Assembly (NCBI GenBank): GCA_016865035.1 | Contig: CP018227.1 | Location: 714,001-778,000 of the forward strand | Direction of reading: 5' to 3' | DNA from: Kordiimonadales bacterium IMCC3096 | GTDB taxonomy: Bacteria > Pseudomonadota > Alphaproteobacteria > Minwuiales > Minwuiaceae | DNA: 64,000 bases | Part shown: one piece after another, positions 34,911 through 50,041 of the stretch | Position numbering within the stretch: the stretch's first letter is position 1 | Layout of the letters: the number at the start of each line of letters is the position of its first letter | The notes under the pieces: model-generated | The model's database searches: none | Seen by the model: the letters and a program-made list of their open reading frames with translations, nothing else | What the model was told of the DNA's origin: nothing | Program-made: the position numbers and the translations under genes

Positions 34911-35693
34911 CTATCGCCGGACGGCCAGCGCCTCCACCGGCAGCCCGTTGCCGCGCCAGGCGGCATAGAGCTCCAGCGCCAGATAATCGTCGGAGCCGAG
35001 TGCGCCAGGTTCCGCCAGACGCTGGTCGTCGCAGAACCGGAAGCGGCGATGCACCGACCCGACCTCTCCCCAGCGCAGCAGGTACCCGGGCAGCCCATTG
35101 GTCTGACCCTGCGTCAGTTGCTCCCCCCGCAACCACAGGCCGACGCGTTCGTCGTGGCACTGGAAGCAGGCCAGGTTCATCTGGCCCCGCCGTTCGGTAT
35201 AGAGGGCCCGACCGCGATCGAGGTAGGGACGGGCAGCGCCATCCACGCGCACGGCCATCGGCATCCCGTCGGAGCGTTCCCGCACGGCGAGCATCAGCGA
35301 CAGCATGGCCTCCGACCCCAGCGCCAGCGCAGGTGCGGACATGCGCACCGTCCGGCAGCGGTTGATCTGTCCCTCCAGCGCGGTCAGCGCCCCATCCACC
35401 ACCTTCGGAAACGTCGTGGCGGCACCGCGCAGATCAGCAGCGCCGTGACAGTCCGCGCAGGCCTTCTTCGCCGCACCCTCGACCCGGCTGAAGGCACTCT
35501 GCCCCCGCTCCAGCCAGAACAGTGCCGGATTGGCAAAGCTGTCGCGCTGCATCTCCTGCACAGCGGGGGTCGCAAGCGCATGGCCCGATACGGGCGGCGC
35601 GGGCCGGTCAGGCATGTCTTCCGCCATTGCCGGACGGGCGGGCGTGAACCAGATAGAAGCTGCAACCAGCAGCGAGAAGAGGAACCCGTTCAT
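34911..35693 (-). CDS. soxA: Sulfur-oxidation dihaem cytochrome c SoxA
   Basis: SoxA subunit of SoxAX, which attaches thiosulfate to the SoxYZ carrier in the periplasm. A signal peptide ends at AMA-E (about residue 24). Two CxxCH haem sites are CADCH (79-83) and CFQCH (176-180). Cys113 in INRCR and Cys221 in RRFRFCDDQ match the distal haem ligands of dihaem SoxA. The ending YLALELYAAWRGNGLPVEAL is diagnostic. No soxX, soxYZ, soxB or soxCD is in the window, so this gene is isolated. Its ATG shares CATG with the divergent VOC gene, and no good ribosome site precedes it. Confidence 0.9.
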   Translation of the reverse strand: MNGFLFSLLVAASIWFTPARPAMAEDMPDRPAPPVSGHALATPAVQEMQRDSFANPALFWLERGQSAFSRVEGAAKKACADCHGAADLRGAATTFPKVVDGALTALEGQINRCRTVRMSAPALALGSEAMLSLMLAVRERSDGMPMAVRVDGAARPYLDRGRALYTERRGQMNLACFQCHDERVGLWLRGEQLTQGQTNGLPGYLLRWGEVGSVHRRFRFCDDQRLAEPGALGSDDYLALELYAAWRGNGLPVEALAVRR

Positions 35694-36081
35694 GTCACTG
35701 AGTATCGCAAGGATCGATCATGTTGTCCTTCACGTCAGCGAGATGGACCGCGCCCTCGACTTCTACACCAATGTCCTGGGCTGCGAAGTCGCCCGCACGG
35801 TCGAGAGCCTGGGGCTGGTCCAGATGCGTGCCGGGGCCAGCATGATCGACCTGGTACCTGGCCGTGATCCGGAAGCCTCCACCCCGGCGGCGCGGAACAT
35901 GGATCACTTCTGTGTCCGCGTGGATCCATGGGACGAGACGGCCATCCGCGACCACCTTGCGGCGCACGGTGTGGCGGTGGGCGAGACCAGGACACGTGTC
36001 GGCGCGGAGGGCGCCGGTCCGTCGATCTACCTCACCGACCCGGACGGCAATGTCGTCGAACTGAAAGGTCCGGCCACCTGA
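35692..36081 (+). CDS. VOC-superfamily (glyoxalase/bleomycin-resistance fold) protein
   Basis: 129-aa single VOC module pair. It has the first metal-ligand-like H in IDHVVLHVSEMD, LDFYTNVLGCEV, H in NMDHFCVRVD and the terminal acid in YLTDPDGNVVELKG. This is the virulence-type VOC pattern seen in glyoxalase I-like and extradiol-like proteins; the substrate is unknown. AGAGGA lies about nine bases upstream, inside soxA's signal-peptide codons, and the start codon overlaps that of soxA on the other strand. Confidence 0.86.
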   Translation: MSLSIARIDHVVLHVSEMDRALDFYTNVLGCEVARTVESLGLVQMRAGASMIDLVPGRDPEASTPAARNMDHFCVRVDPWDETAIRDHLAAHGVAVGETRTRVGAEGAGPSIYLTDPDGNVVELKGPAT

Positions 36082-36109: not shown

Positions 36110-36139
36110 TTGTTCAGCATGATTGGTTAGCGCTACACT
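36110..36139 (+). promoter_or_regulatory. Candidate promoter of the HD-GYP-like/heparinase-like operon
   Basis: TTGTTC and TACACT are separated by 18 bp, ending 28 bp before the ATG of the sensor gene, in a locally AT-rich stretch. It is a plausible sigma-70-type promoter by spacing. Confidence 0.35.
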
Positions 36140-36167
36140 GGTCTGCACCTTTCAGGCTGGACCTGTC

Positions 36168-38237
36168 ATGACCGAAACAAGCGTTTCCGCGATTTCCGAT
36201 GCCATAGGCGGTGACCGGCGCCAGATGCGTCGGCGCGCCGCGCGGGCCCTTGTGGCGCTGCTGCTCGTGGCGATCGTGGCGGTGCTGGGCATTGTCTGGT
36301 TCGCGGACAGTGAACGTGACCGCCTGACTGCCGAATGGGAGATCCGCCTGGGCCTGGTGGCCGACAGTCGCAAGGCGGCCGTGGAGGACTGGCTCAACGA
36401 ACGTCGCGGCGAAGTGCTCCGACTGGCGGCAAACCGCACCGTGCAGTTCCATCTGGTCGACCTTGCCGACCCGGAACTGGCGCGGGAGGAAACCGACAGC
36501 AGCCGCCTCTATATCGAAGGGCTGATGACGTCAGAGGCAGAACGTGGCGGCTACCTGTCGCCGCGCGGTCAGGTGGCGACGGCTGGCCACGATACGTCTG
36601 CCCAGGGTGGTCTGATCCTGCTGGATGCCAGCAACAACATTGTCGCCCAGACCCCCGGCGCACCTGATCCGACATCCCTGTTGCCGGACAGTCTGCGACC
36701 CGGCCAGGTCCGGGTTTCGCCCCCGTTCGCGGCGGGTGACGGCACGGCCATGATCGCGCTGTTCAGTGCCATCAGCGCCCCCGAAGGCAGCACCGATGGC
36801 GGGATCGGCCTGCTTGTGGCCATCCGACCGCTCGGTGATGACTTCTTTCATCGGCTGGAACAACCCGGCGACACGACAAGCGGTGCCGAGACCTTCCTGA
36901 CAGATTTCAACGACAGCCATATCCGCTATCTGAGTCCTCTCGACGACGGGGCCGCGCCGCTCACGCGCCAGATCCCGGCCTCCATGGCCGAGCGGGCGGC
37001 GGTCGCCCTGCAGGGCATGCCGGCCGGCAGTGGCAGCTTCGTCGGCTATGCCGGTGATGAGGTACTGGCGGTCAGCCGACAGATCATCGGTACCGGCTGG
37101 ACACTGATCCGGCAGATCCCGAGCGACCAGGCCCTGTCCGGTGGCATTCGCCGCATCTGGCTGATCTCGGGCACCCTGTTGCTGGCGCTGCTGCTGGCAG
37201 CCGCCACTGTAGTCGCCGTCTGGCGTCACGCCATCAGCGACCGGCTGGCGGATGCGGCGAGCAACCTGTCGGTCGCACTGAAGGAATCCGACCGCCTGAG
37301 CCGTCTGCTGCGCAACGTGGCAGACGCTGTCCCCAACGGCATCACAGCGGTCGACCGGGAGGAGAAGGTACTGTTCGGCAACCGCGCCGCCTTCGACCAC
37401 ATCGGTATCCCGGCGAATGAGGCGGAGGGCATGCCGCTGATCAACCTGCTCGGCCCCGGCGGCAGCGCCCCCCTGCATGCGGCCAACGCCATGGTGCGGG
37501 AAGGCCATCAGACCATGCGGTACGTGGACGACCACGGGGCCGGGGCGAATCGTTCCGTGATCCAGCGCATTCATGTGCCGCTGGATGACGATGGCGTGCT
37601 GATTGTCGCCGAGAACTTGACCGAGATCGTCGTGGAGCGGGAAGCGCGGGCGGCACAGCTTGATGCGCTGGTCAACGTCCTGGTCGATCTGATTGACGCC
37701 CGTGACCAGTTTGCCGCGTACCATTCGCATCGGGTTGCACGGCTTTCGCGGCGGATGGCCGAAGCCATGAAGCTGCCCAGACCGCAGATCGTGGCAGCGG
37801 AAACCGCCGCACGCCTGATGAACCTGGGCAAGCTGCGCATCGATCCGGCGATCCTGACCAAGACGGAGGGGCTGACCCCCGATGAACTGGCCGAGGTCCG
37901 CGACAGCATCCTGCATTCCGCAGATCTAGTGGAGGGTATTCCCTTCGATGGACCGGTGGTCGAGACCCTGCGTCAGATGCAGGAGCGTCTGGACGGCAGT
38001 GGTCGACCGAACGGGGTCAGTGGCGACAACCTGCTGGTTCCGGCCCAGATCGTCTCCCTGGCGAACGCCTATGTTGCCCTGATCAGCGAACGTGCCCATC
38101 GGGCCGCGCGCACGCCGGAGCAGGCACTGGAACAGCTCTGGCCGGAAGCCGAGAAGACCTGGCGGCGCACGGTCATTGCGGCGCTGGTGCAAGCCAATGA
38201 CGCGGCCGCAGAGGCGGAGTCCGGCGGAGACAACTGA
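36168..38237 (+). CDS. Membrane sensor with periplasmic domain, PAS-like domain and degenerate HD-GYP domain
   Basis: 689 aa. The first membrane helix (residues 26-46) is followed by a periplasmic dCache-like sensor (47-325), a second helix (330-352), a PAS-like region (380-490) and an HD-GYP-like domain (505-680). Working HD-GYP c-di-GMP phosphodiesterases need HD, HHE and GYP motifs. Here HD is MN (551-552, retaining LGKL), the HHE position is QMQE (603-606) and GYP is GRP (612-614), while the shape around HSHRVARLSRRMAEA and DGSGRPNG is kept. It is therefore probably not a phosphodiesterase; it may bind nucleotide or a partner. The stop overlaps the next start as TGATG. Confidence 0.85.
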   Translation: MTETSVSAISDAIGGDRRQMRRRAARALVALLLVAIVAVLGIVWFADSERDRLTAEWEIRLGLVADSRKAAVEDWLNERRGEVLRLAANRTVQFHLVDLADPELAREETDSSRLYIEGLMTSEAERGGYLSPRGQVATAGHDTSAQGGLILLDASNNIVAQTPGAPDPTSLLPDSLRPGQVRVSPPFAAGDGTAMIALFSAISAPEGSTDGGIGLLVAIRPLGDDFFHRLEQPGDTTSGAETFLTDFNDSHIRYLSPLDDGAAPLTRQIPASMAERAAVALQGMPAGSGSFVGYAGDEVLAVSRQIIGTGWTLIRQIPSDQALSGGIRRIWLISGTLLLALLLAAATVVAVWRHAISDRLADAASNLSVALKESDRLSRLLRNVADAVPNGITAVDREEKVLFGNRAAFDHIGIPANEAEGMPLINLLGPGGSAPLHAANAMVREGHQTMRYVDDHGAGANRSVIQRIHVPLDDDGVLIVAENLTEIVVEREARAAQLDALVNVLVDLIDARDQFAAYHSHRVARLSRRMAEAMKLPRPQIVAAETAARLMNLGKLRIDPAILTKTEGLTPDELAEVRDSILHSADLVEGIPFDGPVVETLRQMQERLDGSGRPNGVSGDNLLVPAQIVSLANAYVALISERAHRAARTPEQALEQLWPEAEKTWRRTVIAALVQANDAAAEAESGGDN

Positions 38238-40720
38238 TGCGGAGCCTGTTACGGCATCTGGTTGTCGGTACGGCTCTGACCGCCGGTCTCTCTGCGGGTC
38301 TCCCTGCCCCGGCTGTCGCGGACGGCTGGTACGACCCGCACCAGAATCCACCGACCCTGCCGCGCAGCCTGCAGGACTGGATCACCCCGCAGGGTGGCAA
38401 GGAAATGCGGGAGATGCCGGAGGACAATCTGGTCGCGCTGGAGAACCCACCGGCCTTCGGCTGGCGTTCGGGGCAGGACCGCTACAGTTTCGAGGTCCGG
38501 ATCGCGCGCGACGGCCAGCGCTACATGCAGTTCGTGACGCAGGCAACCGCGTTCCGGCCCGACCGTCCGATGGAACCGGGCAGATATACCTGGCAGGTGC
38601 GACGGCTGGATTCCTACGGTCGCCCCCTGCCCGACAGGAGCAGCCGGGTCGCCGATCCCGAAGGCTGGTCCACACCGAGGATCTTCGAAGTCCGACAGGA
38701 TGGAATAAACCTCTCCGTCCCGCCCGTCTGGGACGCCTTCGACCGCGCCAAGGCACGCAAGCGCCCGCGGTCACTGCCTGCGGACCCTGCGAGCGGTCGG
38801 TTCGACCCCGCGCTTCTGACCCCGGCACAATGGCAGGTGTTCGAGACCGTCGCCCGCCGCTTTCTGAAGGAGGCCCCGGAAGCCGAGGCCTTCGCCCGGC
38901 AGCGCAGCGACGGCAGCCGTTCCGCCCTTCGCCAGATCATGCGCAGGATCGACGATGCCCTGGCGGTCGCGAAGGTGCATCGGCAGCAGGCGGTTCGCCG
39001 GCAGGCGACGCAGGTGGCGCTGCTCTATCTCGACAACCTGATCGGGGAGAACCCGCTGGGCCGCACCGGCCACGACGGCAATGACCTGCTGAACATCCGG
39101 CTGGCGAAGACCGTGGCCCGTGCCTACGACATCCTGAAGAGCGACATGGACCGTCAGACCCAGCTTCGGGTCCAGCGTCATATCGAGGACAGGACGCAAC
39201 CGGCCTTCGACTATTTCATGCTGAACGACCACGGAAATCTGGAGCAGTTCGCACTCAGTTCGCACGGGTTCCAGATCATGACCCATGTGCTGGCCATCGC
39301 GTCACTGTTGAGCGGTGATTCCGACCGCGCCCGGCTCTGGTTCCGCGACAGCTACCCCCTCATCTCCATGATCGTGACACCTTGGGGTGGCGGTGACGGT
39401 GGCTATTCCAACGGCGTGAACTACGGCGTCTGGGAATTCGTCAATCACGTCGACAGCTGGGACGTGATCCACAACAGCACCGGCTTTCCCTATTTCGATA
39501 CCGCATGGGTACGGAACTTTGCGGAGTTCCTGACCTATTTCGCCCCGCCGGGTGTCGCCTATACAGGGTTCGGCGACGGCGGCGAGTATCTGCGTCCCGA
39601 ACTCTGGTCGGAGATCGCCCGACTCTATTCCGAACGCGGTCGCGGTGCCTTTGCGGACCCGCTGCTGGACGGCTGGCAATCCCATCTGGTGGCCCGGACA
39701 GGCAAGGCTGCGCCACTGACCAATGCCCTGCTGTGGCCCCGGCTGTTCAGCGATCAGAGCGACAACCCCGACCCCGCGCTGCAACTGGATGCCATCCCCG
39801 ATGCAGCGATCTTCCCCGACATCGGCTGGGGTGTGATCCACACCGACATCAGCGACCCCGAACGCTATTCGGTCCTGTTCAAGTCGAGCCAGTTCGGCTC
39901 CTTCAGTCACAGCCACGCCGACCAGAACGCCTTCACCATCATGGGACGGGGGCAACCGCTGCTGCTCGACAGCGGCTACTACGACGACTACCGCTCGAAG
40001 CATCATGATGGCTGGACGCGCCAGACGCGGGCACACAACGCCATCACCTTCGACGGTGGGATGGGGCAACCCATCGACGATCCAGGCGCCAGGGGCCGCC
40101 TGCTGGGATACTGGCGCTGTGGCGGGGTCGTGGTCATGCGCGGTGATGCGTCCGGCGCCTATGGCCAGGGCATCAGCCGCGCGCTGCGGACCCTCATTTC
40201 CCTGCCCGGCGGTCGGGTGCTCGTCGCTGACCGGATGGTTGCCGACAGGGAACGAAAGTGGGAATGGAACTTCCATGCCGCCGAGCCGCTGACCGACACC
40301 GACAGGAATTTCGCCGTCGTGCGCAATGGCGCTGCCCGCGCCGCCATTCAGGTGCTCGCAGGACCGGACCTGGAACTGGCACAGTCGAAGGGTTTCCCGT
40401 TTCCGGCCAGGACGAAGAACGGCATCGCCCCCGTCGACCAGTTTCACGCCGCCTTCACCAGCCGTCGCGCCACACCGTCACTCGACATGCTGACCCTGAT
40501 CGACCTGGACCGCGACAGTCGGGCGACGGACGCCACGGCGCGGATGACAGGCAGCGGTCGGGTCAGTTTCAAAGTCGGGCGCTACGCCGGTACCATCGAC
40601 GATGGCAAGGTCAGCCTGAACATCGACGGTGCGGCAGTCGATCGGGCAACCTGCGCCGTTCCACCCCCCGAACCGATAGAGGCACAGAGCGTGAAACTGC
40701 GCCTCGGTGGACGGAACTAG
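38237..40720 (+). CDS. Secreted heparinase II/III-like (DUF4962-type) protein
   Basis: 827 aa with a signal peptide ending at AVA-D (about residue 29). An N-terminal Ig-like DUF4962-type segment (45-160, with RYTWQVRRLDSYG) precedes an alpha/alpha-toroid domain (190-500) and a heparinase II/III beta-sandwich (560-820) with SHSHADQNAF, the central His motif of these lyases. A Tyr/His-rich stretch YFMLNDHGNLEQF fits the lyase active site. The family cleaves uronate-containing polysaccharides such as alginate or glycosaminoglycans; the substrate is inferred only as an acidic polysaccharide. Coupled by TGATG to the upstream sensor gene. Confidence 0.85.
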   Translation: MRSLLRHLVVGTALTAGLSAGLPAPAVADGWYDPHQNPPTLPRSLQDWITPQGGKEMREMPEDNLVALENPPAFGWRSGQDRYSFEVRIARDGQRYMQFVTQATAFRPDRPMEPGRYTWQVRRLDSYGRPLPDRSSRVADPEGWSTPRIFEVRQDGINLSVPPVWDAFDRAKARKRPRSLPADPASGRFDPALLTPAQWQVFETVARRFLKEAPEAEAFARQRSDGSRSALRQIMRRIDDALAVAKVHRQQAVRRQATQVALLYLDNLIGENPLGRTGHDGNDLLNIRLAKTVARAYDILKSDMDRQTQLRVQRHIEDRTQPAFDYFMLNDHGNLEQFALSSHGFQIMTHVLAIASLLSGDSDRARLWFRDSYPLISMIVTPWGGGDGGYSNGVNYGVWEFVNHVDSWDVIHNSTGFPYFDTAWVRNFAEFLTYFAPPGVAYTGFGDGGEYLRPELWSEIARLYSERGRGAFADPLLDGWQSHLVARTGKAAPLTNALLWPRLFSDQSDNPDPALQLDAIPDAAIFPDIGWGVIHTDISDPERYSVLFKSSQFGSFSHSHADQNAFTIMGRGQPLLLDSGYYDDYRSKHHDGWTRQTRAHNAITFDGGMGQPIDDPGARGRLLGYWRCGGVVVMRGDASGAYGQGISRALRTLISLPGGRVLVADRMVADRERKWEWNFHAAEPLTDTDRNFAVVRNGAARAAIQVLAGPDLELAQSKGFPFPARTKNGIAPVDQFHAAFTSRRATPSLDMLTLIDLDRDSRATDATARMTGSGRVSFKVGRYAGTIDDGKVSLNIDGAAVDRATCAVPPPEPIEAQSVKLRLGGRN

Positions 40721-40753
40721 CCAGCATCGCCCCGCCGTTCCACCCGCCCCCGA

Positions 40754-42988
40754 TCAGAACACCTGCTCAACGCTCCAGCGCGTCTGGCCGGGCGGCGGGA
40801 AACGTCCGGCATACTGCAGTTCGATCCGCACGGTGCCGTCCGTCCGGCGCGGCAAGCCGAGGCGCAGCGTGCCCTCCGGCGTGCGCCATTCGCTGATGCG
40901 GATCAGTTCGTTGCTGTTGATCTGCTGCACGAAATCGGCACCGAACTCACCACGCTCGAACACCTCCGGGGTGCCATAGCGCTGGATCAGGATGCGCTGG
41001 ATATCCTGGAACACCTGCTGCACGCCGACAGGATCTCCGGTTGCCACCAGATCGAAGATGGCAGCGGATTTCACCAGTCGGGCCCCGTCATGCAGCAGGG
41101 CAATCCGTTGCGGATTGGCGACCTGCGGCAGATAGGCCGCCTGATAGACAACCGCGCCGGGCTGTTCGACGCCTCCGCTGATCCCGGCAGCCTGCAAGCG
41201 CCCGCGTGCCTCGGCCAGCGACATGCTGGGTGTCAGGTCGATCAGGTCCAGCTCCGCCGGAAACTCACCCTCTGCAATCGGAATCAGCGACGGGGAGACG
41301 GCGGCCTGCGCAGCCTGCCGGTCTTCCGCCGTGGCCTTCTGGAACGCCAGCGTATAGAAGACGCCCACCCGATAGGCAGACGTGAACCCGCCTGGTTCCG
41401 GCTGGCGATGGAACAGATCCACCGAGGTACCGAAACTGTGGGGGCCTGTGCGGTAGGCATAGTTGGCGGACAGGGTATGCGCTGCCGACTCCAGCACGTT
41501 GTTGCCTGCCTGATCCTGGAACAGGAAACGGTAGTTGGCGTTCAGAGAATGGTTGCCGCGAAACATGTTGGCCGCCAGCGTGGCGCCGAAGTCTGCCTCG
41601 TCATTGCCCGCACCCTTGATCAGCCGCCAGAGCAGGCCCGGAGTCACGCTGCCGCGAAACCCGCCCAGTTCCAGACCATGTGTCGCGTTCAGCGCCACCT
41701 CCCGCGTCGTCGCCAGCGTGTTGGCCGCCTGATCGTCCACGTGCTGGTAGAACAGGTTGGCCCGCCCGGTCCAGCCGCTGGCAATCGGTGCCGAGAGGCC
41801 GAGACGGGATGAGGCCGTCAGGGATTCAGTGGTGCTGTTGTCGTTCTCGACATCCTGCAGGAAGCTGTCCCAGGTCATGGAGACGGTACGGCTGTCGCTC
41901 AGCCGAAGAGGGCCACTGACCGTCACGCCCGCAACCTGGGTGTCGGTGCTGTTGGCACGCGTGAAGGCGTCCGTGAACTGTTGCAGGCGACCGCGCAGTG
42001 CCAGCCCGTTCTCCAGCCTGTATCCGGCCCGCAGGTCGAACGTGCGGCGGTCGGAGGAGACGACACCACCGTTCGGCTGGAACTCCGCCCCGGTCTGGTC
42101 GAAGCGGAAACTGTAGGTAAGCGGAGAGCTTTCGGAGCGGCCACTGACCTGCGCCAGCACCGAATAGTCCAGTGCGTCGGTCTGGCCGGCACCGCCGTTG
42201 CCGATGTCCCCGTTCAGCAGCGCCATCTCGCCCTCGAAACTGAGGATCTGGCTGCCGACCCGCCGATCATGGACTCCGGCGAAGCTGCCGGTCACCTGAT
42301 TGCGGTCAGGGGTGGCACCATCCGCCTGCCGGAAGCCATGCACGAGGCTGAAGGAGTAGGTGCTGCCCCCGTTCTCCGTCAGCCACGACGCCCCATTGAA
42401 ATAGTCGTCGAACCAGTTCTCGAAGGCACTGCCGACATAGGTCTGCTGATTGGAACCGGAACTGAACTGCAGGGAATGGGTACCGTCGAGCCATCCGACC
42501 TGGGGCTGCAACTCAAGCTGCCCACCCTTCAGCGCACGCTGCAGGGTCCGAAAGCTGTAGAAACCGAAGAAATCGCCAGCCTCCGCGCGCAGTGGCACCG
42601 ATCCGTCACCCTTGGTCCAGGTCAGGTTCGCGCGCTCCGGCACGATGCCGCGATTGGCGGAGCGAAACTCCGAACTGTTCACGACACCGTCGAAACTGCC
42701 GCGCAGGAAATTCCAGGGGGAGTAGCGCCGTTCCAGGTTCAGGTGCACCTCGTCGAAGAAATCGAAGGCATTGTCCGGATTGGGGTTGGCGCTGGCGTCA
42801 CCGGCCACCCCCGACTGTTCCGCCCGGAACGTGTTGGTCCCGTCGATGCGCCATTCCGGCAGGGGATCGCCATACTGGCCGATCTCCAGTGCCTCCTGCG
42901 CACTTGCGCCTTCCAGAGCAACCGCAGCGGCTCCCGCCACGACGAGCGGGCGCAACCTCACCCCCATACGTCCCGCCCCTTCCCTCAT
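40754..42988 (-). CDS. Outer-membrane beta-barrel-like protein with soluble C-terminal domain
   Basis: 744 aa with a signal peptide ending near ASA-Q (residue 30). Residues 40-560 are rich in alternating aromatic/polar beta strands, for example YSFSLVHGFRQAD and YRLENGLALRGRLQQF, spaced like the strands of a large barrel. The chain ends in Phe (WSVEQVF), as outer-membrane proteins often do, but the last 170 residues look soluble (DLTPSMSLAEARGRLQAAGI). I do not recognise a family. It is the last gene of a four-gene overlapping unit; its ATG overlaps the preceding stop (ATGA). MGVRLRPL at 42967 is an alternative start. Confidence 0.72.
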   Translation of the reverse strand: MREGAGRMGVRLRPLVVAGAAAVALEGASAQEALEIGQYGDPLPEWRIDGTNTFRAEQSGVAGDASANPNPDNAFDFFDEVHLNLERRYSPWNFLRGSFDGVVNSSEFRSANRGIVPERANLTWTKGDGSVPLRAEAGDFFGFYSFRTLQRALKGGQLELQPQVGWLDGTHSLQFSSGSNQQTYVGSAFENWFDDYFNGASWLTENGGSTYSFSLVHGFRQADGATPDRNQVTGSFAGVHDRRVGSQILSFEGEMALLNGDIGNGGAGQTDALDYSVLAQVSGRSESSPLTYSFRFDQTGAEFQPNGGVVSSDRRTFDLRAGYRLENGLALRGRLQQFTDAFTRANSTDTQVAGVTVSGPLRLSDSRTVSMTWDSFLQDVENDNSTTESLTASSRLGLSAPIASGWTGRANLFYQHVDDQAANTLATTREVALNATHGLELGGFRGSVTPGLLWRLIKGAGNDEADFGATLAANMFRGNHSLNANYRFLFQDQAGNNVLESAAHTLSANYAYRTGPHSFGTSVDLFHRQPEPGGFTSAYRVGVFYTLAFQKATAEDRQAAQAAVSPSLIPIAEGEFPAELDLIDLTPSMSLAEARGRLQAAGISGGVEQPGAVVYQAAYLPQVANPQRIALLHDGARLVKSAAIFDLVATGDPVGVQQVFQDIQRILIQRYGTPEVFERGEFGADFVQQINSNELIRISEWRTPEGTLRLGLPRRTDGTVRIELQYAGRFPPPGQTRWSVEQVF

Positions 42989-43488
42989 CCGTCGATTTCC
43001 TGGAACTCCATCACGAAGTCATTGGTTCCGGTCAGCACGACGAAGCCCAGCGTCTGGTCCGTGAACTCGATCCGGGTCCGCACGGTGGCCGAGACCGTGC
43101 TGACGATACGACGCTCACCGTCATCGGTGGTCAGCCGGGCCTGCTGCACGGTCTGCACCCCCTGCACCGCCTGGATCCTCAGTACCGCATCGCGCGGGAC
43201 CTTGATGTCCTGGTTCTCTACCAGCCGGGCGCGATCGACGAAGTCGTCGGCGACATAGCTGCCCTGGTTGCCGGAATTCCAGTCGCGGGCGAAATCGGCA
43301 AGGAACCGCTCCACCTCTGCCCGTGGCACCGGGTTCACACGGGCCACCCGCACAGCGCCCGTTGGCAGCAACGCCGCGGACTGGTCCGGTGTCTGGATCC
43401 GATTGAGCCGCCGCAGTTCCCGTGCCTCCAGCAGGGTCGTCGTGAACAGGATGCTCAGGATCAGAAGAATGCCGGTCTTTCCCATCAT
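42985..43488 (-). CDS. Exported NTF2-like small protein of unknown function
   Basis: 167 aa. The N-terminal hydrophobic run (GILLILSILFTTTLLEA) is a signal peptide or anchor. The remainder resembles an NTF2/SnoaL-like fold: an amphipathic helix VERFLADFARDWNSGN, a DDFVDRARLV segment, then long beta strands (RRIVSTVSATVRTRIEF, LGFVVLTGTNDFVMEFQ). No catalytic motif is apparent. ATG 43488 overlaps the upstream stop; ATG 43485 is an alternative. Probably a periplasmic partner of the barrel-like and large secreted proteins encoded beside it. Confidence 0.7.
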   Translation of the reverse strand: MMGKTGILLILSILFTTTLLEARELRRLNRIQTPDQSAALLPTGAVRVARVNPVPRAEVERFLADFARDWNSGNQGSYVADDFVDRARLVENQDIKVPRDAVLRIQAVQGVQTVQQARLTTDDGERRIVSTVSATVRTRIEFTDQTLGFVVLTGTNDFVMEFQEIDG

Positions 43489-44213
43489 GCCACCTGCTGG
43501 ATTGCATTGACGGTAAAGCTGAACTCACCACCGCCCAGCGCGGAGACCGTCACCGTGATCTGGACAGTAAATCCGTTCGTCGCCTTGATCGTGACCGTGG
43601 TCGGCGTGTCGAGCGGGACATCAACATCGATTGCACCCGGTGGATCGAACTCGAACAGGCCGACGAGCCTGTCGGGAAACACCTCCGCCGCCGTGAAGTC
43701 TACCCCACCATTCGCCGGGATCTGTGCGATCAGGGCCGAACCCGTGCTGCCGTCAGCCACGACCGTGCAGTCGCCGGTGTTGGGGTCGATATCCAGCGAT
43801 GCAAAGCGGAAATCGGGCGGTGCCGTGCCGCTGGCCTGCATCTGCACCGTGACGCCCTGGCAATTGGCAAGTCCGCCGCCACCGCCGCCATTGTTGTTAC
43901 CCTGGTTCGCGTTAACGGCATCTTCCAGAGACGCGAACACCTGTCCATTGTTGTTGCGCACCGGGTCGATCTGGTTCAGCGGGTTGTTGCCGTTGATGAT
44001 CGTGACCTGCTTCAGCACCCGGCTGACGAACTGCCTGTTCGTCTGCAGCCGAGTCACGTTGTTGCCGCCGGTTCCGGGTGCGACGATACGGATCGAGGTC
44101 TTGCCGGTACCGACACTGACCTCACCGCCCTGCGCCAGGACGGGTCCGGCCGCGAACAGGAGTGCGCCGACGCAGCCGGCCCTGATTGCGGCCCGGAAGA
44201 GAGAACTGACCAT
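43485..44213 (-). CDS. Exported Gly/Asn-rich protein with Ig-like end, unknown function
   Basis: 242 aa with a signal peptide ending at VLA-Q (about residue 27). A middle linker is extremely Asn/Gly-rich (NQGNNNGGGGGGLANC). Only a few cysteines are present, and the two in ANCQG and GDCTV could pair. The C-terminal 60 residues look like an Ig-like sandwich (TPTTVTIKATNGFTVQITV). ATG 44213 overlaps the preceding stop as TGATG; GTG 44216 is also possible. No family recognised. It probably works with the flanking exported proteins. Confidence 0.7.
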   Translation of the reverse strand: MVSSLFRAAIRAGCVGALLFAAGPVLAQGGEVSVGTGKTSIRIVAPGTGGNNVTRLQTNRQFVSRVLKQVTIINGNNPLNQIDPVRNNNGQVFASLEDAVNANQGNNNGGGGGGLANCQGVTVQMQASGTAPPDFRFASLDIDPNTGDCTVVADGSTGSALIAQIPANGGVDFTAAEVFPDRLVGLFEFDPPGAIDVDVPLDTPTTVTIKATNGFTVQITVTVSALGGGEFSFTVNAIQQVA

Positions 44214-47200
44214 CACTGCGCCCCCTCTTCCCGGGAGACATCACCGACGATGCGGATCAGTTCCACCTCGATGGGGGCTTCGCGGCCAATCAGCTGCGGG
44301 TCATCGGCTATGGTCAGCGTGTTGACGCAAAGTCCTGCATTGCCGCTGACCGGTGCCAGGGTGACGAAGGACCTGTCGAAAGTCCCGAAGGCCGGATCGG
44401 CCTGCCAACGGCAGTCGAAGTCCCCCGCGTCGTCGAAGGGCACATTCAGCACATTGGCGAAGATCACCACCGACTGTCCCGGCGCTGCCGTGTTGGGAAT
44501 GCGGAAGGTGAATTGCGGCGGCCCGAGCACGGGACCGTCGTCGCCGAGCCGGAACTCGCCCAGCACCCGCCCGCCCTGTGCGATCACCTGGGCGGCGCGC
44601 ACGGCATCGGGCGCGACCTCGGCAACAGCCTCCGCCGCCGCATCACCCTTCTCGAAGGTGCCGTCGATCGTGCCGCCGTCACGCAGCACGAAACGGGCGC
44701 GGTAGGACGCCATGTCGGCAGGGCCGAAGACCTCCAGCACGGTCTGAATGCCATTGCCGCCCTCGCGCTGCTTCACGTTCAGCTTGTTCACGGTGACGAA
44801 GGCCGAATCGCTGTTGGACCGGCGTGGCGGCAGTATGAAGCGCGGGCTGCTGCCGGGCGAAACCTCCTGCGGCGCCACCCGCGCCACGAAGTTTCCCGTG
44901 TCACGGGTGGAAGTGTCGGCACCGCCGCCCAGTGCATCGAAGCTTGCGCGCAGGGTGTCGCCGTCGAAGCGCAGGAAGCCGTTGCCGATCACCCGCGCAT
45001 CGAAGAAGCGCAGCGGTGCCTCGATCCTGGGGCCACCGGTCAGCACCTGAACGCCGAACTGGCCGAAATCATTGCGCCGGGCAGGAATGAAGATGTCCTT
45101 CGCCGCAATGCCGACATTGGTGTCCTTCGCCACCAGGCGCAGGTCATTGCCGACGATGCTGGCAACCACTTCCTTGCTGCCGCGGGCCAGGATGACGCCG
45201 TCCGGTGACAGCAGTTCGGCGGTCACATTGTATCGCTTGCCCGTCGCCTCCGCGAGGTCCGTCGCGGTGAGTGAGGTCGAGGCCACGGAAACGCCGCCCT
45301 GGCTGCGGAACCGGGCCAACGGCGTGGTCACCTGCACGCCGTTGTCCGCACTCCACCTGACGCGATAGCCGGACATGCGGGCGGGGCCATCAACGATGAT
45401 ACGCACCGCGTTCTGGGTGACCAGGTCGATGACCGGGTCGAAGAACTCGGCGGCGGCGGTCAGCGGCTCCACCTCCATCCCGATGCCGTTCGCCGTCAGG
45501 TCAAGGGTCTTCTCGAAATACCTGTCGCCCAGATCGTCTTCGATGAAGACCGTGTAGGTACCGGAGCCCGGGCGCAGCGCCGTGAAGGCGACACCCGTCC
45601 CGTCCTGGGCCGCGTTGAAGTCACCCACGCCGGAAAAGGACAGCGGGGTTCCACGCCCGATGCGGCTGACGCCGTCCGGTGCGGTCAGCTCCACCGAGAT
45701 CAGGTCCATGCGGAAACCGGTACGGAGGGCGGAAACATCGTCGTCCAGGCTGATGAAGGCATCCAGGTCACGGTCCTGATCCAGCATGTTGCCATCGGCC
45801 CTGATCGAGGACTCCAGCACCATCTCGACATCGGTGATCTTGACGACGTCGATCCTGACCTCGTCCGTGATGTCATCCATTCTCGGCAGGAAATCACGGC
45901 AGGTGGTGGCCGAATCGCCCGTGACGGTCGGGCGCTGGGTGAAGTCGACCAGCGCCCTGGCGGTCGCCACGACCCGATCGGTCCCGATCTCGCGCCCCTG
46001 GATCATGCTCACGATCCCGTCGTGTACCTTGGTGAAACGGGTACCGGAAAGCTGCGGCCGGATACCGAAGCTGGGACCGGAATCAAAGAACCGCTGGGAC
46101 CGGATACGCTCCACCAGTTCATCACGCACCTGAACCTGGAAACGACAGTCGCGGCGGCTGTCGATCTGGTGCCGTCCCATCACCACGAAGGGCACCGCAT
46201 GGGGAACACCGGTCATCCGCTGGGTCAGCGGGTCCGCGGCCAGACGCTGCGTCCTGCCCATGTCGATGGCCATGTTCACCAGCACGACGTTGCCACCGGC
46301 CTGCTGCGCGCGTCGGGTCTGGCGCTGCGCAATCGCATTCGGCAGTTCATCGATCAGCGCCTGCAACGCGTCCAGGGCCTTCACCAGTTCGCCACGGTTC
46401 GTGTAGGCGGGTCCCTTCAGGAAATTGACCTGCCCCTTTGATATTTCCGGACGTTCCAGGCCGGTTCGGCGGATTTCGTCGAACAGGGCGCTGACCCGCT
46501 GCTGCGCGGCATCGATCTGGTCCCGGAGGTCGCGATCCTCCCGCGAGATGATGGCGAGCGCGGCCAGCGCCTCCTGCCCCAGGGCATTGTCGCGCTGGCG
46601 CAGCGCATTCAGTTCCCGGGTCGCCTCGCTGACGGCTTCATGGGCGCGGCGGGCAACCGGGATCAGACTGGCCTTGACCGAAACGATCGGCCGCATCAGG
46701 CCACCAACACTGATCGCCTTGTCGAAACCACGCTCGAAGCTGTCCAGTTCAGCCCCAAGGGCGGCAACGCGCTTCGGGTCGCGCACGGCGGCGTCCTGCA
46801 ACTGGACACCCCAGAGATCGAGCCGACGCGGCCCCTCCACAGTCAGGCCGGTACGGATCTCCCGCAGGTTCTCCACCAGTCGCTCGGTCAGTTCCAGGTC
46901 GCGCAGTTCCGCGCGCCGCACCTCTTCCCTGAACTCTGCCAGAACCTCCTGGCGGCGAGGAACGTCGAAGATGGTGATGACACCCAGTTCCGACAGCTTC
47001 CGCACCGAGCGGGCGTTGGCGATGAAGGGATTCTTGCTCGTCGTGGCGAGGATGTTCAGGCTTGCACCGAGCACGGCAGTTCCCGTGCCCTGCTTGTTGG
47101 TGTCGTCCACGATGTCCTTCACAAGGGTATAGACCTTGTGGCTGTTCTTGATCCGGTCCGCCGAACCCTTGATCTTCTGCAGCCGTTCGAACTGTTCCGC

Positions 47201-47500
47201 CCGCAGCTTGATGAACAGCGTCTCAAGCTGCTTGTTGATGATGGCGTTCGACAGGTTGAGGCCGGAATCGATGGCCTGGTTCAACTGCTCCGACAACAGT
47301 TCCTCATGCTCGCGCATGCTGTTGATCAGACCCCGATTGGTCTCGATGGTGTCCTGGATTCCCGCAGCAAGCTCGCCCATCTGCTCGATCTGGGTAGGCG
47401 CACTCTGGGCCTGCGCGCCGTTCGGCACAAGCGCCAGGATCACGAGTCCCGCCGTCAGCAAGGCCCCACGAAAGAAATCTACAACGGTCCCGTTGTCCAT
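44213..47500 (-). CDS. Large exported coiled-coil/beta-rich protein of unknown function
   Basis: 1095 aa. A signal peptide ends at AQA-Q (about residue 31). The first 400 residues are helical with coiled-coil heptads (IEQMGELAAGIQDTIETN, ELRDLELTERLVENLREI). The remaining 690 are beta-rich and domain-repetitive, as in extracellular Ig-like proteins (GTYTVFIEDDLGDRYFEK, SDSAFVTVNKLNV). About four cysteines lie in this half. ATG 47500 is chosen because CAGGGG precedes it and the signal peptide begins there. It is the first gene of the overlapping four-gene unit. I recognise no homologue; a role in surface or envelope architecture is inferred. Confidence 0.75.
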   Translation of the reverse strand: MDNGTVVDFFRGALLTAGLVILALVPNGAQAQSAPTQIEQMGELAAGIQDTIETNRGLINSMREHEELLSEQLNQAIDSGLNLSNAIINKQLETLFIKLRAEQFERLQKIKGSADRIKNSHKVYTLVKDIVDDTNKQGTGTAVLGASLNILATTSKNPFIANARSVRKLSELGVITIFDVPRRQEVLAEFREEVRRAELRDLELTERLVENLREIRTGLTVEGPRRLDLWGVQLQDAAVRDPKRVAALGAELDSFERGFDKAISVGGLMRPIVSVKASLIPVARRAHEAVSEATRELNALRQRDNALGQEALAALAIISREDRDLRDQIDAAQQRVSALFDEIRRTGLERPEISKGQVNFLKGPAYTNRGELVKALDALQALIDELPNAIAQRQTRRAQQAGGNVVLVNMAIDMGRTQRLAADPLTQRMTGVPHAVPFVVMGRHQIDSRRDCRFQVQVRDELVERIRSQRFFDSGPSFGIRPQLSGTRFTKVHDGIVSMIQGREIGTDRVVATARALVDFTQRPTVTGDSATTCRDFLPRMDDITDEVRIDVVKITDVEMVLESSIRADGNMLDQDRDLDAFISLDDDVSALRTGFRMDLISVELTAPDGVSRIGRGTPLSFSGVGDFNAAQDGTGVAFTALRPGSGTYTVFIEDDLGDRYFEKTLDLTANGIGMEVEPLTAAAEFFDPVIDLVTQNAVRIIVDGPARMSGYRVRWSADNGVQVTTPLARFRSQGGVSVASTSLTATDLAEATGKRYNVTAELLSPDGVILARGSKEVVASIVGNDLRLVAKDTNVGIAAKDIFIPARRNDFGQFGVQVLTGGPRIEAPLRFFDARVIGNGFLRFDGDTLRASFDALGGGADTSTRDTGNFVARVAPQEVSPGSSPRFILPPRRSNSDSAFVTVNKLNVKQREGGNGIQTVLEVFGPADMASYRARFVLRDGGTIDGTFEKGDAAAEAVAEVAPDAVRAAQVIAQGGRVLGEFRLGDDGPVLGPPQFTFRIPNTAAPGQSVVIFANVLNVPFDDAGDFDCRWQADPAFGTFDRSFVTLAPVSGNAGLCVNTLTIADDPQLIGREAPIEVELIRIVGDVSREEGAQ

Positions 47501-47711
47501 CCGCACAATCCCCTGAATACCGACCTGCATGTCATGAGATGGATAACCCGGAGTTTTACTGTTGCAACGCACAACTGCAAGACTCACCAACCCACACGTG
47601 CACATTTTTTCAGGCGGGCAACAGGCAGGGGGCGAAGGCTATTCGTCAGGAAAATCGCGAACGAGAGCGCTGTCACACTTCATTGCCCGCTCGCAAGAAA
47701 GTGAACGTGGC

Positions 47712-49286
47712 TCACCAGTAGCCGAAGCGGTAACCGCGCTGGAACGCCATGCCGGTCGAGTCGCGGATCCAGTCATCGCCGATGCCGACGCGGGTCCGGC
47801 GCTGGTACAGCCAGTCGAACAGCCGCGCCTGCAATCCGTCACGAATGTCGCCATGCCCCGGGTCTGTCCCCAGATCCTGCTGCTCCAGAGGATCGTTCTG
47901 CAGGTCGTAGAGTTCCGGACGGAAGCGGACGTGGTGGATGTATTTCCACCGCCCCGTCCGGATCATGCAGGCCCGGGCGTCCATGGGCGCAAGGTCCAGG
48001 GTCTTGCGGGCATGGCGCAGGGAATAGTCGCACTCCGCAAAGACCGCATCGCGCCAGTCTTCGGTACGGGCCTCCCCGAGCAGAAACGGTGCCAGCGAGC
48101 GCCCTTCCAGCCGCTGCCCCGGAACCGCGCCGCCCAGCCTCTCGATGAAGGTGGGAATCAGGTCGATGGCCTCCACCATCTCCTCGACGACCGTGCCGCG
48201 CGTCGCATCGGCAGCGGGCGACGGGTCGGCAATGATCAGCGGGATGCGCAGTGCATCCTCGTAGAACAGCTCCTTCTCCCCCAGCCCATGGTCGCCCAGA
48301 TAGTCGCCATGATCGCTGGTGAAGACGATCAGCGTGTCCTTCAGCAGACCCTTCCGCTCCATGAAGTCGAACAGGCGGCCCAGATGGTCGTCGATCTGTT
48401 CGATCAGCCCCATGTAGGCCGGGATCACGGTGTTGCGGCATTCATCCTCCCGGAAGGCTATCGACTCCGGGTGCTGGCGAAAGGCGTCCAGCACCGGATG
48501 CGGCGCCTCTTCCCCCAGCCCCCGGTTTCCGGGCAGGACATCAGCCGCGCCGTAGCGGGCGTGATAGGGCGCGGGCGCGATATAGGGCCAGTGCGGCTTG
48601 ATATAGGACAGATGCAGGCACCAGGGTGCCTCACCGGCCTGGGTCATGAAATCCATTGCGCGGCGGGTCATGTAGGGGGTCTCGCTGTCCTCCTCCCGCA
48701 CCACGGCGGCGAACCGGGCGTTGCGCATCAGCCAGCCGGACGGATCCTCCCCGTCATCGCGCTGCACGGAATTCGCGACCTCGTGCCAGAGGTTGGTGCC
48801 CTGATAGCCCTGTGCCCGAAGATAATGCTCGTAGGCCACCTCCGGCACGTAGGGGGCCAGGCGGTGCAGGCCGTCATCCCGGTCGAAGGGCTCGAAGCCG
48901 CATTCGGCCAGGAACTGTCCCCTGCCCGTCGCGGGATCCAGCCCCAGCCGCCTGATCCCGGCCTCATCCGCCTTCATGTGGGTCTTGCCGGCGAGCGCCG
49001 TCCTCAGACCCAGCGGTGCCAGATAGTCGCCCAGCGTCCATTCGTCGGTCCGCAGCGGATAGTTGTTGTAGGTCGCGCCATGGCTGACCGCGTAGCGCCC
49101 GGTATAGAACGACATGCGCGACGGACCGCAGACCGCCGCCTGGACAAAGCTGTTCGCGAAACGGACACCACGTGCCGCCAGCGCGTCGATCACCGGGGTG
49201 CGCAGGGTCGGATGCCCGGTGCAGCCGAGATAATCGTGCCGCAACTGATCCGCCATGATGAACAGGATGTTTTTCGGCCGCGTCAT
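47712..49286 (-). CDS. Sulfatase/phosphonate-monoester-hydrolase-type alkaline phosphatase superfamily enzyme
   Basis: 524 aa. The formylglycine nucleophile motif is CGPSR (Cys53), followed by MSFYTGRYAVSHG. Metal ligands are D13 in IMADQLRHD and DH in TSDHGDYLGDHGLGEK. KTHMKADE, a conserved Lys/His region, lies near residue 105. The sequence around CGPSR is closest to phosphonate monoester hydrolases, which also split phosphodiesters and sulfate esters; the true substrate is not known. It needs a formylglycine-generating activity that is not encoded here. Its ATG overlaps the methyltransferase stop. Confidence 0.88.
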   Translation of the reverse strand: MTRPKNILFIMADQLRHDYLGCTGHPTLRTPVIDALAARGVRFANSFVQAAVCGPSRMSFYTGRYAVSHGATYNNYPLRTDEWTLGDYLAPLGLRTALAGKTHMKADEAGIRRLGLDPATGRGQFLAECGFEPFDRDDGLHRLAPYVPEVAYEHYLRAQGYQGTNLWHEVANSVQRDDGEDPSGWLMRNARFAAVVREEDSETPYMTRRAMDFMTQAGEAPWCLHLSYIKPHWPYIAPAPYHARYGAADVLPGNRGLGEEAPHPVLDAFRQHPESIAFREDECRNTVIPAYMGLIEQIDDHLGRLFDFMERKGLLKDTLIVFTSDHGDYLGDHGLGEKELFYEDALRIPLIIADPSPAADATRGTVVEEMVEAIDLIPTFIERLGGAVPGQRLEGRSLAPFLLGEARTEDWRDAVFAECDYSLRHARKTLDLAPMDARACMIRTGRWKYIHHVRFRPELYDLQNDPLEQQDLGTDPGHGDIRDGLQARLFDWLYQRRTRVGIGDDWIRDSTGMAFQRGYRFGYW

Positions 49287-50041
49287 CGGTCGCTGTCTCC
49301 GTCCCTGGTGCTGGTACGTGTCGCCGGGGCCAGCGCCGGGGCGGAGCGGATGCGCCTGCGCCGCTTTTCCCGCAATGGCGTGACCGCAAAGACCTGCTTT
49401 GACACCTCGACCATCACAAGCCCTGCAAAACCCGGCCAGACCCGTGTTCCCACACGCTCGAACAGCCTGTTGGCGCGCAGCAGCGGTCGCCAGCCAAGCG
49501 GTGGGAAATGCAGTGCCATGTTGGTCTGCTCCGGCAGGAACATGTTGGCGCGCAGCAGGCGTGAAAGCTGTCCGGTGGTATAGGGATGGCCGTGTCCGAA
49601 CGGCGTATGCTCCGCCCGTGACCAGAGTCCGCGACGGTTCGGCACGATGAACAGGGCACGTCCGCCACTGTCCATCACCCGCCAGATCTCGCGCAGCAGG
49701 GGCCTGGCCGCTTCCGTCGTCTCCAGCGCGTGGACGACGATGATCCTGTCCATGCTCTGGTCCGGCAGCGGCAGCTCCAGCTCGTCACCCAGAAAGACAC
49801 GGTTCGGACCTTCGCGGGGCCAGTGCTGGATACCCTGGTTGGCGGGCATCGCCGCAATCACCCGGTCAGCCTGCTCCAGGAACGGCCGGATGAAGGGGGT
49901 GGCATAGCCGATTCCCAGTATCTTCTGTCCGCGCACATCGGGCCAGAGCTGGGCCAGCGACTGCCGCACGTGGCGACGGACCAGGTGCCCGAGAGGTGCC
50001 GAATAGAACTGGCTGAGGTCGATGATGTCCGGACGCCACAT
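49283..50041 (-). CDS. Class I SAM-dependent methyltransferase
   Basis: 252 aa. The SAM site is ILGIGYATPF rather than a full GxGxG. Motif II is HALETTEAARPLLREIWRV, then GGRALFIVPNRRGLWS. A similar methyltransferase often sits beside gloB in alphaproteobacteria, but no gloB is here. The C-terminal 40 residues are Arg/Pro-rich. The substrate is unknown. Translationally coupled (ATGA) to the phosphonate-hydrolase-type gene, so a common pathway is possible. Confidence 0.84.
   Translation of the reverse strand: MWRPDIIDLSQFYSAPLGHLVRRHVRQSLAQLWPDVRGQKILGIGYATPFIRPFLEQADRVIAAMPANQGIQHWPREGPNRVFLGDELELPLPDQSMDRIIVVHALETTEAARPLLREIWRVMDSGGRALFIVPNRRGLWSRAEHTPFGHGHPYTTGQLSRLLRANMFLPEQTNMALHFPPLGWRPLLRANRLFERVGTRVWPGFAGLVMVEVSKQVFAVTPLREKRRRRIRSAPALAPATRTSTRDGDSDR

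Follow-up and report, generated by a model that had tools for sequence, protein, structure and literature searches.

Introduction

What do four overlapping genes for exported proteins, lying together in an alphaproteobacterial genome, make? The question is raised by a minus-strand unit, here called genes A to D, in a 64,000-nucleotide (nt) stretch of DNA from Kordiimonadales bacterium IMCC3096 (assembly GCA_016865035.1, contig CP018227.1, positions 714,001 to 778,000); this whole stretch is referred to below as the window, and its host genus is Minwuia (Alphaproteobacteria). A preliminary description, made from the letters of the window alone, had suggested that the four products are components of one envelope or surface assembly. 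We found that B, C and D are kept together, in the same order, in distant bacteria and are therefore probably one undescribed cell-envelope machine. That B-C-D is one co-inherited unit is well supported, and the unit is more widely conserved than is visible from the window.

Few outer-membrane barrels as wide as the one modelled for gene D have, to our knowledge, a known job. The jobs known for such barrels are lipopolysaccharide insertion, pilus assembly and electron conduits (partly from an excerpt of PMC7198977, partly general background).

Results

Gene order and co-inheritance

The genes follow one another as A (44213..47500), B (43485..44216), C (42985..43488) and D (40754..42988), all on the minus strand. 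The overlaps that had been reported between them are exactly 4 nt at all three junctions, and the reported signal peptide or hydrophobic N-terminus was confirmed by eye as signal-peptide-like on each of the four products. Because a gap of 211 nt separates A from a sulfatase gene upstream and one of 33 nt separates D from a convergent heparinase-like gene, A-D look like an operon of their own; a scan gave promoter- and terminator-like sites no more often than chance would. No model of Pfam or NCBIfam reached its curated cut-off for A-D, which agrees with the earlier remark that no family could be recognised in A, B or C.

A profile of D built from Minwuia sequences only matched eight of the 385 genomes of the class, seven of them at full length; the eighth match (genome G015, E = 3.3e-4) was weak and barrel-only, had no B or C beside it and was set aside. 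The profile of C matched exactly the seven genomes with a full-length D, and that of B matched six of the 385, all within these seven. The seventh (G088) has, where B would be expected, a frame with a B-like end and a 4-nt overlap with C. Since the C profile holds sequences of all seven lineages and the B profile those of most, these matches arise largely by construction, and their informative part is that no other genome was matched. Outside the class, D was found in six of 398 genomes of the phylum besides the window's own: it is nearly full length in G549, G526 and G643, cut by a contig end in G511, and partial in G556 and G567.

B, C and D are adjacent at all 14 loci that have a complete D and sequence upstream of it, and two of these lie in genomes outside the class. 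The 14 comprise four copies of the window locus (locus 1) and four of a second locus (locus 2) in Minwuia, together with the loci of G202, G231, G128, G088, G549 and G643; as eight are in Minwuia and those of G231 and G128 are close, they represent about seven diverged lineages. The B-C-D junctions range from a 10-nt overlap to a 10-nt gap, with the 4-nt overlap at 25 of 28. Left out of this count were G526 and G511, where the contig ends upstream, G567, which has fragments, G556, whose D is truncated at a contig end, and G758, whose D contains two in-frame stops and has C directly before it. A D match in G526:C194 (E = 7.1e-6, positions 306-455) and stand-alone C-terminal domains of D in G202:C112 and G758:C15 were also set aside. 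The trees of C and D correlate (r = 0.87 over 14 sequences, a value inflated by recent orthologues), and none of 2000 permutations reached this r.

The independent scattering of homologues that the preliminary description had named as a contrary outcome was not what we found, the exceptions being the stand-alone C-terminal domains of D, some fragmentary copies and an additional C at the edge of a contig. This extra C (G002:C11:193-660) possibly reflects a strain mixture or a third locus. Window D and C had no match among 72,556 plasmid records, nor had the D profile in IMG/VR, and so there is no sign of a mobile element.

A probable wide barrel in D

D (744 amino acids, aa), a core component, was modelled as 26 consecutive strand elements over residues 47-550, resembling an outer-membrane-type barrel, followed by a C-terminal alpha/beta domain (about 575-744); the mean predicted local distance difference test score (pLDDT) was 61.8 and the predicted TM-score (pTM) 0.48. 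The last barrel strand likely ends near residue 550. Hydrophobicity alternation in the barrel region was 0.73, compared with 0.53 (standard deviation 0.04) in shuffled sequences, but the C-terminal domain also scored 0.70, so that alternation is not specific to the barrel. D had been described as a barrel-like protein ending in Phe with a soluble domain, and the model, at modest confidence, likewise suggests a barrel and a separate C-terminal domain. The Phe, in contrast, is no evidence for a barrel, because it lies in the C-terminal domain and only the locus-1 orthologues keep it; N, I, R, P or Q is the last residue of the other D members.

Structure comparison placed MtrB first in both Foldseek (E = 1e-9, TM-score 0.37) and VIA (Z 17.5, 467 residues aligned over 42-551, root-mean-square deviation (rmsd) 8.1). 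The next VIA row reached Z 15.2 with 276 residues aligned; after MtrB came porins at Z of about 15, and the PapC usher and LptD at 13-14. According to an excerpt of PMC7198977, MtrB and LptD have 26 strands and FimD has 24, and MtrB sheathes MtrA. The rank of MtrB suggests that D could be a haem-free relative of the MtrB/PioB sheath that wraps A or B, and thus a fixed conduit across the outer membrane instead of an export channel. We consider this rather unlikely. The match may reflect strand number only (TM-score 0.37, 9-10% identity, rmsd 8-11), LptD too aligns with D (437 residues, Z 13.7), and the 22 proteins examined from the window's and related loci contain no CxxCH, so that there is no cytochrome partner among them. 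A haem conduit of known type was rejected on the same count; a frame with two CxxCH motifs occurs just once across the window, at 34913-35717.

By sequence, the D profile had no match in the PDB at E up to 5. Among 11 D members, the best Pfam match (E = 0.058) came from one member, and NCBIfam gave two weak matches, each from one member: TIGR03016, a PEP-CTERM-associated outer-membrane protein (E = 0.014), and GSU2204 (E = 0.015). One D homologue (L059:1-5326) carries an N-terminal SPOR match (E = 4.2e-13), with which a periplasmic N-terminus of D fits; after it come genes for two small exported proteins and for one that has repeats of about 20 aa. At L041:2893-3483 (G202), the C-terminal domain of D occurs alone as a 196-aa exported protein, which is perhaps lipid-anchored (lipobox judged by eye).

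A probable NTF2-like protein in C

C is a 167-aa exported protein and a core component. For its model (pLDDT 68.7), VIA listed mostly NTF2-like folds, at Z of only 5.7-6.6, the rows being mainly NTF2-like, isomerase, CaMKII-hub, ARC6/PARC6, Tim44 and mitoribosome chains; several of these we take to be members of the NTF2 superfamily, and the mitoribosome chains are presumably mL45. In Foldseek, PARC6 matches (E = 3.5e-3, probability 0.98) stood behind a capping-protein row (E = 2.4e-3), and CsgG chains were low in the list (ranks 47-48, probability 0.08-0.21). The best E value was 1.5 for C against the PDB by sequence and 0.039, from one member, for 11 C members against Pfam. The earlier assignment of C as NTF2-like is consistent with these lists but weak, and C is probably of this fold.

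B and its motif

The third core component, B, is a 243-aa exported protein with a Gly/Asn stretch at residues 81-120 (45% G+N), which confirms the linker reported before, a motif GNNPLN..DP and a beta-leaning C-terminal part. Homologues outside Minwuia were recognised by position, by the motif [AGS][TN]NP[FL][ND] and by C-terminal strands. This motif, which was itself derived from these B genes, has six matches in 185,203 residues of open reading frames (ORFs) from 10 loci, always in the gene directly upstream of C; the B proteins of G231, G128 and G088 have GFDPL[SN]E in its place. The best E value of B against the PDB by sequence was 0.11, and that of nine B members against Pfam was 0.048, from one member. 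A match of B to a PHROG of unknown function (E = 0.0087, no cut-off there) was taken as chance.

In the B homologue of G549 (L058:11363-12649), ten repeats of about 19 aa (57-nt DNA units) precede a GTNPFN motif, and repeats were seen by eye in B at a further locus. The ten repeats, a FecR-domain protein adjoining B at another locus and the ushers among the structural matches of D raise the idea of a chaperone-usher-like or amyloid-export-like fibre system, in which C would be the chaperone, D the pore and B the fibre subunit. It seems to us rather improbable. Ushers appear in the fold lists of D, so that a relation in fold alone is conceivable, but at E up to 1 no usher or PapD-type family of Pfam matched A-D or any of the members scanned (11 of C, 11 of D, 9 of B). 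Pfam scans that covered A-D, the second locus, neighbouring genes and family members gave no CsgG, CsgE, CsgF or curlin-repeat match within their limits. Pfam holds models for the curli families. FapF-, FapC- and FapD-type proteins had no match in the Pfam and NCBIfam scans, whose holdings of Fap models were not checked. Tandem Repeats Finder listed no array at window positions 40000-50000.

A, a variable partner

The longest ORF of A starts at 47605, and three orthologue frames from the same genus begin at the equivalent of its residues 33-42; these start points support a start at or near 47500 and thus the 1095 aa stated earlier for this exported protein. Chou-Fasman averages, a weak method, are helix-leaning over about 150-400 in the N-terminal part and mixed beyond. 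With A2, its counterpart at locus 2, A has only the last ~190 residues in common (24% identity, hhalign probability 94); this domain is also common to a protein at the same place in one distant genome. A is present in four of 60 genomes searched, including the window's own. The conserved synteny that had been named beforehand as support for a joint system holds strongly for B-C-D and in part, through these last ~190 residues, for A. The best E value of A against the PDB by sequence was 0.012. A match of A to PDC-S39 in PADLOC (E = 0.0072, no cut-off there) was taken as chance. An extra partial A with a sulfatase gene lies at a contig edge in L008 (G001:C167), possibly from a strain mixture or a third locus.

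A second locus and the kinase-like protein K

A second, diverged D lies at 2.84 Mb of the single 4.29-Mb contig of the host genome. This paralogous locus (L003), which like the protein K lies outside the window, has the gene order Z-Y-K-A2-B2-C2-D2; the genes that come next look, by eye, like ones for urea transport. B2, C2 and D2 are 35%, 34% and 37% identical to B, C and D of the window, and both loci are kept in G001, G002 and G004. A2 (L003:5926-8299) is split over two frames in the host genome, by a real frameshift or a sequencing error, and is one open frame in those three genomes.

K (L003:2621-5929), upstream of A2, is a 1102-aa exported protein with a kinase-like region. D800, P803 and N805, which form a D..P.N catalytic-loop motif, are invariant in six sequences, and protein kinases head the PDB list of the K profile over about 711-885, at a best E value of only 0.032; Pfam gave no kinase match. 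The K profile matched eight of 230 genomes of the class: the seven with B-C-D, at the same loci, and G043, whose short weak match (positions 703-777 only) was set aside. As the profile includes sequences of six of the seven (all but G128), the informative part of this search is the absence elsewhere. K was not seen in the DNA stretches from outside the class, some of which end near D. Because K accompanies B-C-D at the same loci, we regard it as part of the alphaproteobacterial system and the window locus as a paralogue that has no K. A LuxR-type regulator with an autoinducer-binding domain adjoins the unit at L038:14469-15335 (Pfam) and L039:4710-5546, which hints at quorum control of the unit at these two loci.

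Genes beside the unit

On one side of the unit, a gene with PAS/HD domains overlaps the heparinase-like gene (window 36123-40720), and on the other the sulfatase gene overlaps another ORF (47712-50041). Three genomes of the same genus likewise have the PAS/HD, heparinase-like and sulfatase genes on the flanks of the unit. A search for an empty site to compare with the window yielded none: the heparinase-like homologues of G003 and G006 (59%) had no other window neighbour beside them, and that of G005 (75%) sits at a contig end.

From the sulfatase and heparinase-like neighbours, which accompany locus 1 in the window, G001, G002 and G004, D might be read as the porin of a system for a sulfated polysaccharide. 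We think this highly improbable: within the class, neither the four locus-2 stretches nor L037-L042 showed such neighbours, locus 2 adjoins the putative urea transport genes instead, and the heparinase-like gene is convergent to D.

Discussion

Taking these results together, we propose that A-D form a single operon for an envelope system not described before, with D as the conduit, C as its partner, and B and A as the displayed or exported part. We hold this quite possible, if slightly more apt to be wrong than right. It builds on gene order, co-occurrence and the lack of known families, and on fold models of C and D that are of modest confidence; we infer the membrane placement, the protein that crosses the barrel and the purpose from topology and from other barrels of such width. 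B-C-D would form the core. D would act as a wide outer-membrane barrel of about 26 strands, its C-terminal domain probably facing the periplasm, and C, NTF2-like and periplasmic, would be its partner, probably docking on both D and a client. B may be a small secreted protein whose GNNPFN segment likely contacts C or D while the remainder is displayed, and A a large exported partner held in, or passed through, D. Elsewhere, at locus 2 and in the other Alphaproteobacteria with the unit, K is present too and, being large, exported and kinase-like in one region, would belong to the displayed or exported part. The purpose of such a system may be the display of a surface structure.

Several observations weigh against this proposal. 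D is very patchy, occurring in one of 48 genomes of the class of G549 and in four of 74 in the family of G526 (three partial; the same four as in the phylum search). At one locus (G556) the order is D-FecR-B-C, and the trees of C and D disagree at their deep nodes, which have low support (50-64). The model of D is modest by its pLDDT and pTM, with 65 of residues 106-193 below a pLDDT of 50. A is found in only four of seven genomes of the genus, G003, G005 (89% complete) and G006 having none, and it is missing or replaced at other loci; the window locus, in turn, has no K. A purely structural role for D, without transport, would fit the same data.

A bolder form of the proposal would be a new outer-membrane machine, in which a haem-free sheath barrel of about 26 strands and an NTF2-like adaptor place large exported, partly kinase-like proteins across or outside the outer membrane; we regard this as distinctly unlikely. 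If the proposal of one envelope system is true, bacteria would have one more means of building or loading the cell surface: a barrel, an NTF2-like protein and a secreted protein with a motif, inherited together as a unit that lacks a Pfam or NCBIfam match and occurs in Alphaproteobacteria and other lineages. The kinase-like K raises the question of phosphorylation outside the cytoplasm.

No described secretion or surface-layer system, a match to which had been named beforehand as the other contrary outcome, was matched by the unit, and a literature search with narrow terms found no description of such a unit. With the curli (CsgG/E/F) and Fap systems it shares small exported accessory proteins and, at one locus each, a repeat-bearing B and a FecR-domain protein; however, it has no curli match in Pfam, and a single large barrel chain is modelled in D, whereas CsgG is an oligomeric pore. 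The unit resembles FimD/PapC in that a small exported protein is encoded next to a barrel, modelled here as wide, and C may likewise act in the periplasm, but C looks NTF2-like and no usher or PapD-type family was matched in the Pfam scans. MtrB/PioB provides the best structural match to D, which would, by its modest model, have an outer-membrane-type barrel of about 26 strands too, and both have partner genes in the operon. In contrast to MtrB/PioB, to which it has no family-level sequence match, the unit is free of CxxCH in the 22 proteins, and its D carries an extra C-terminal domain.

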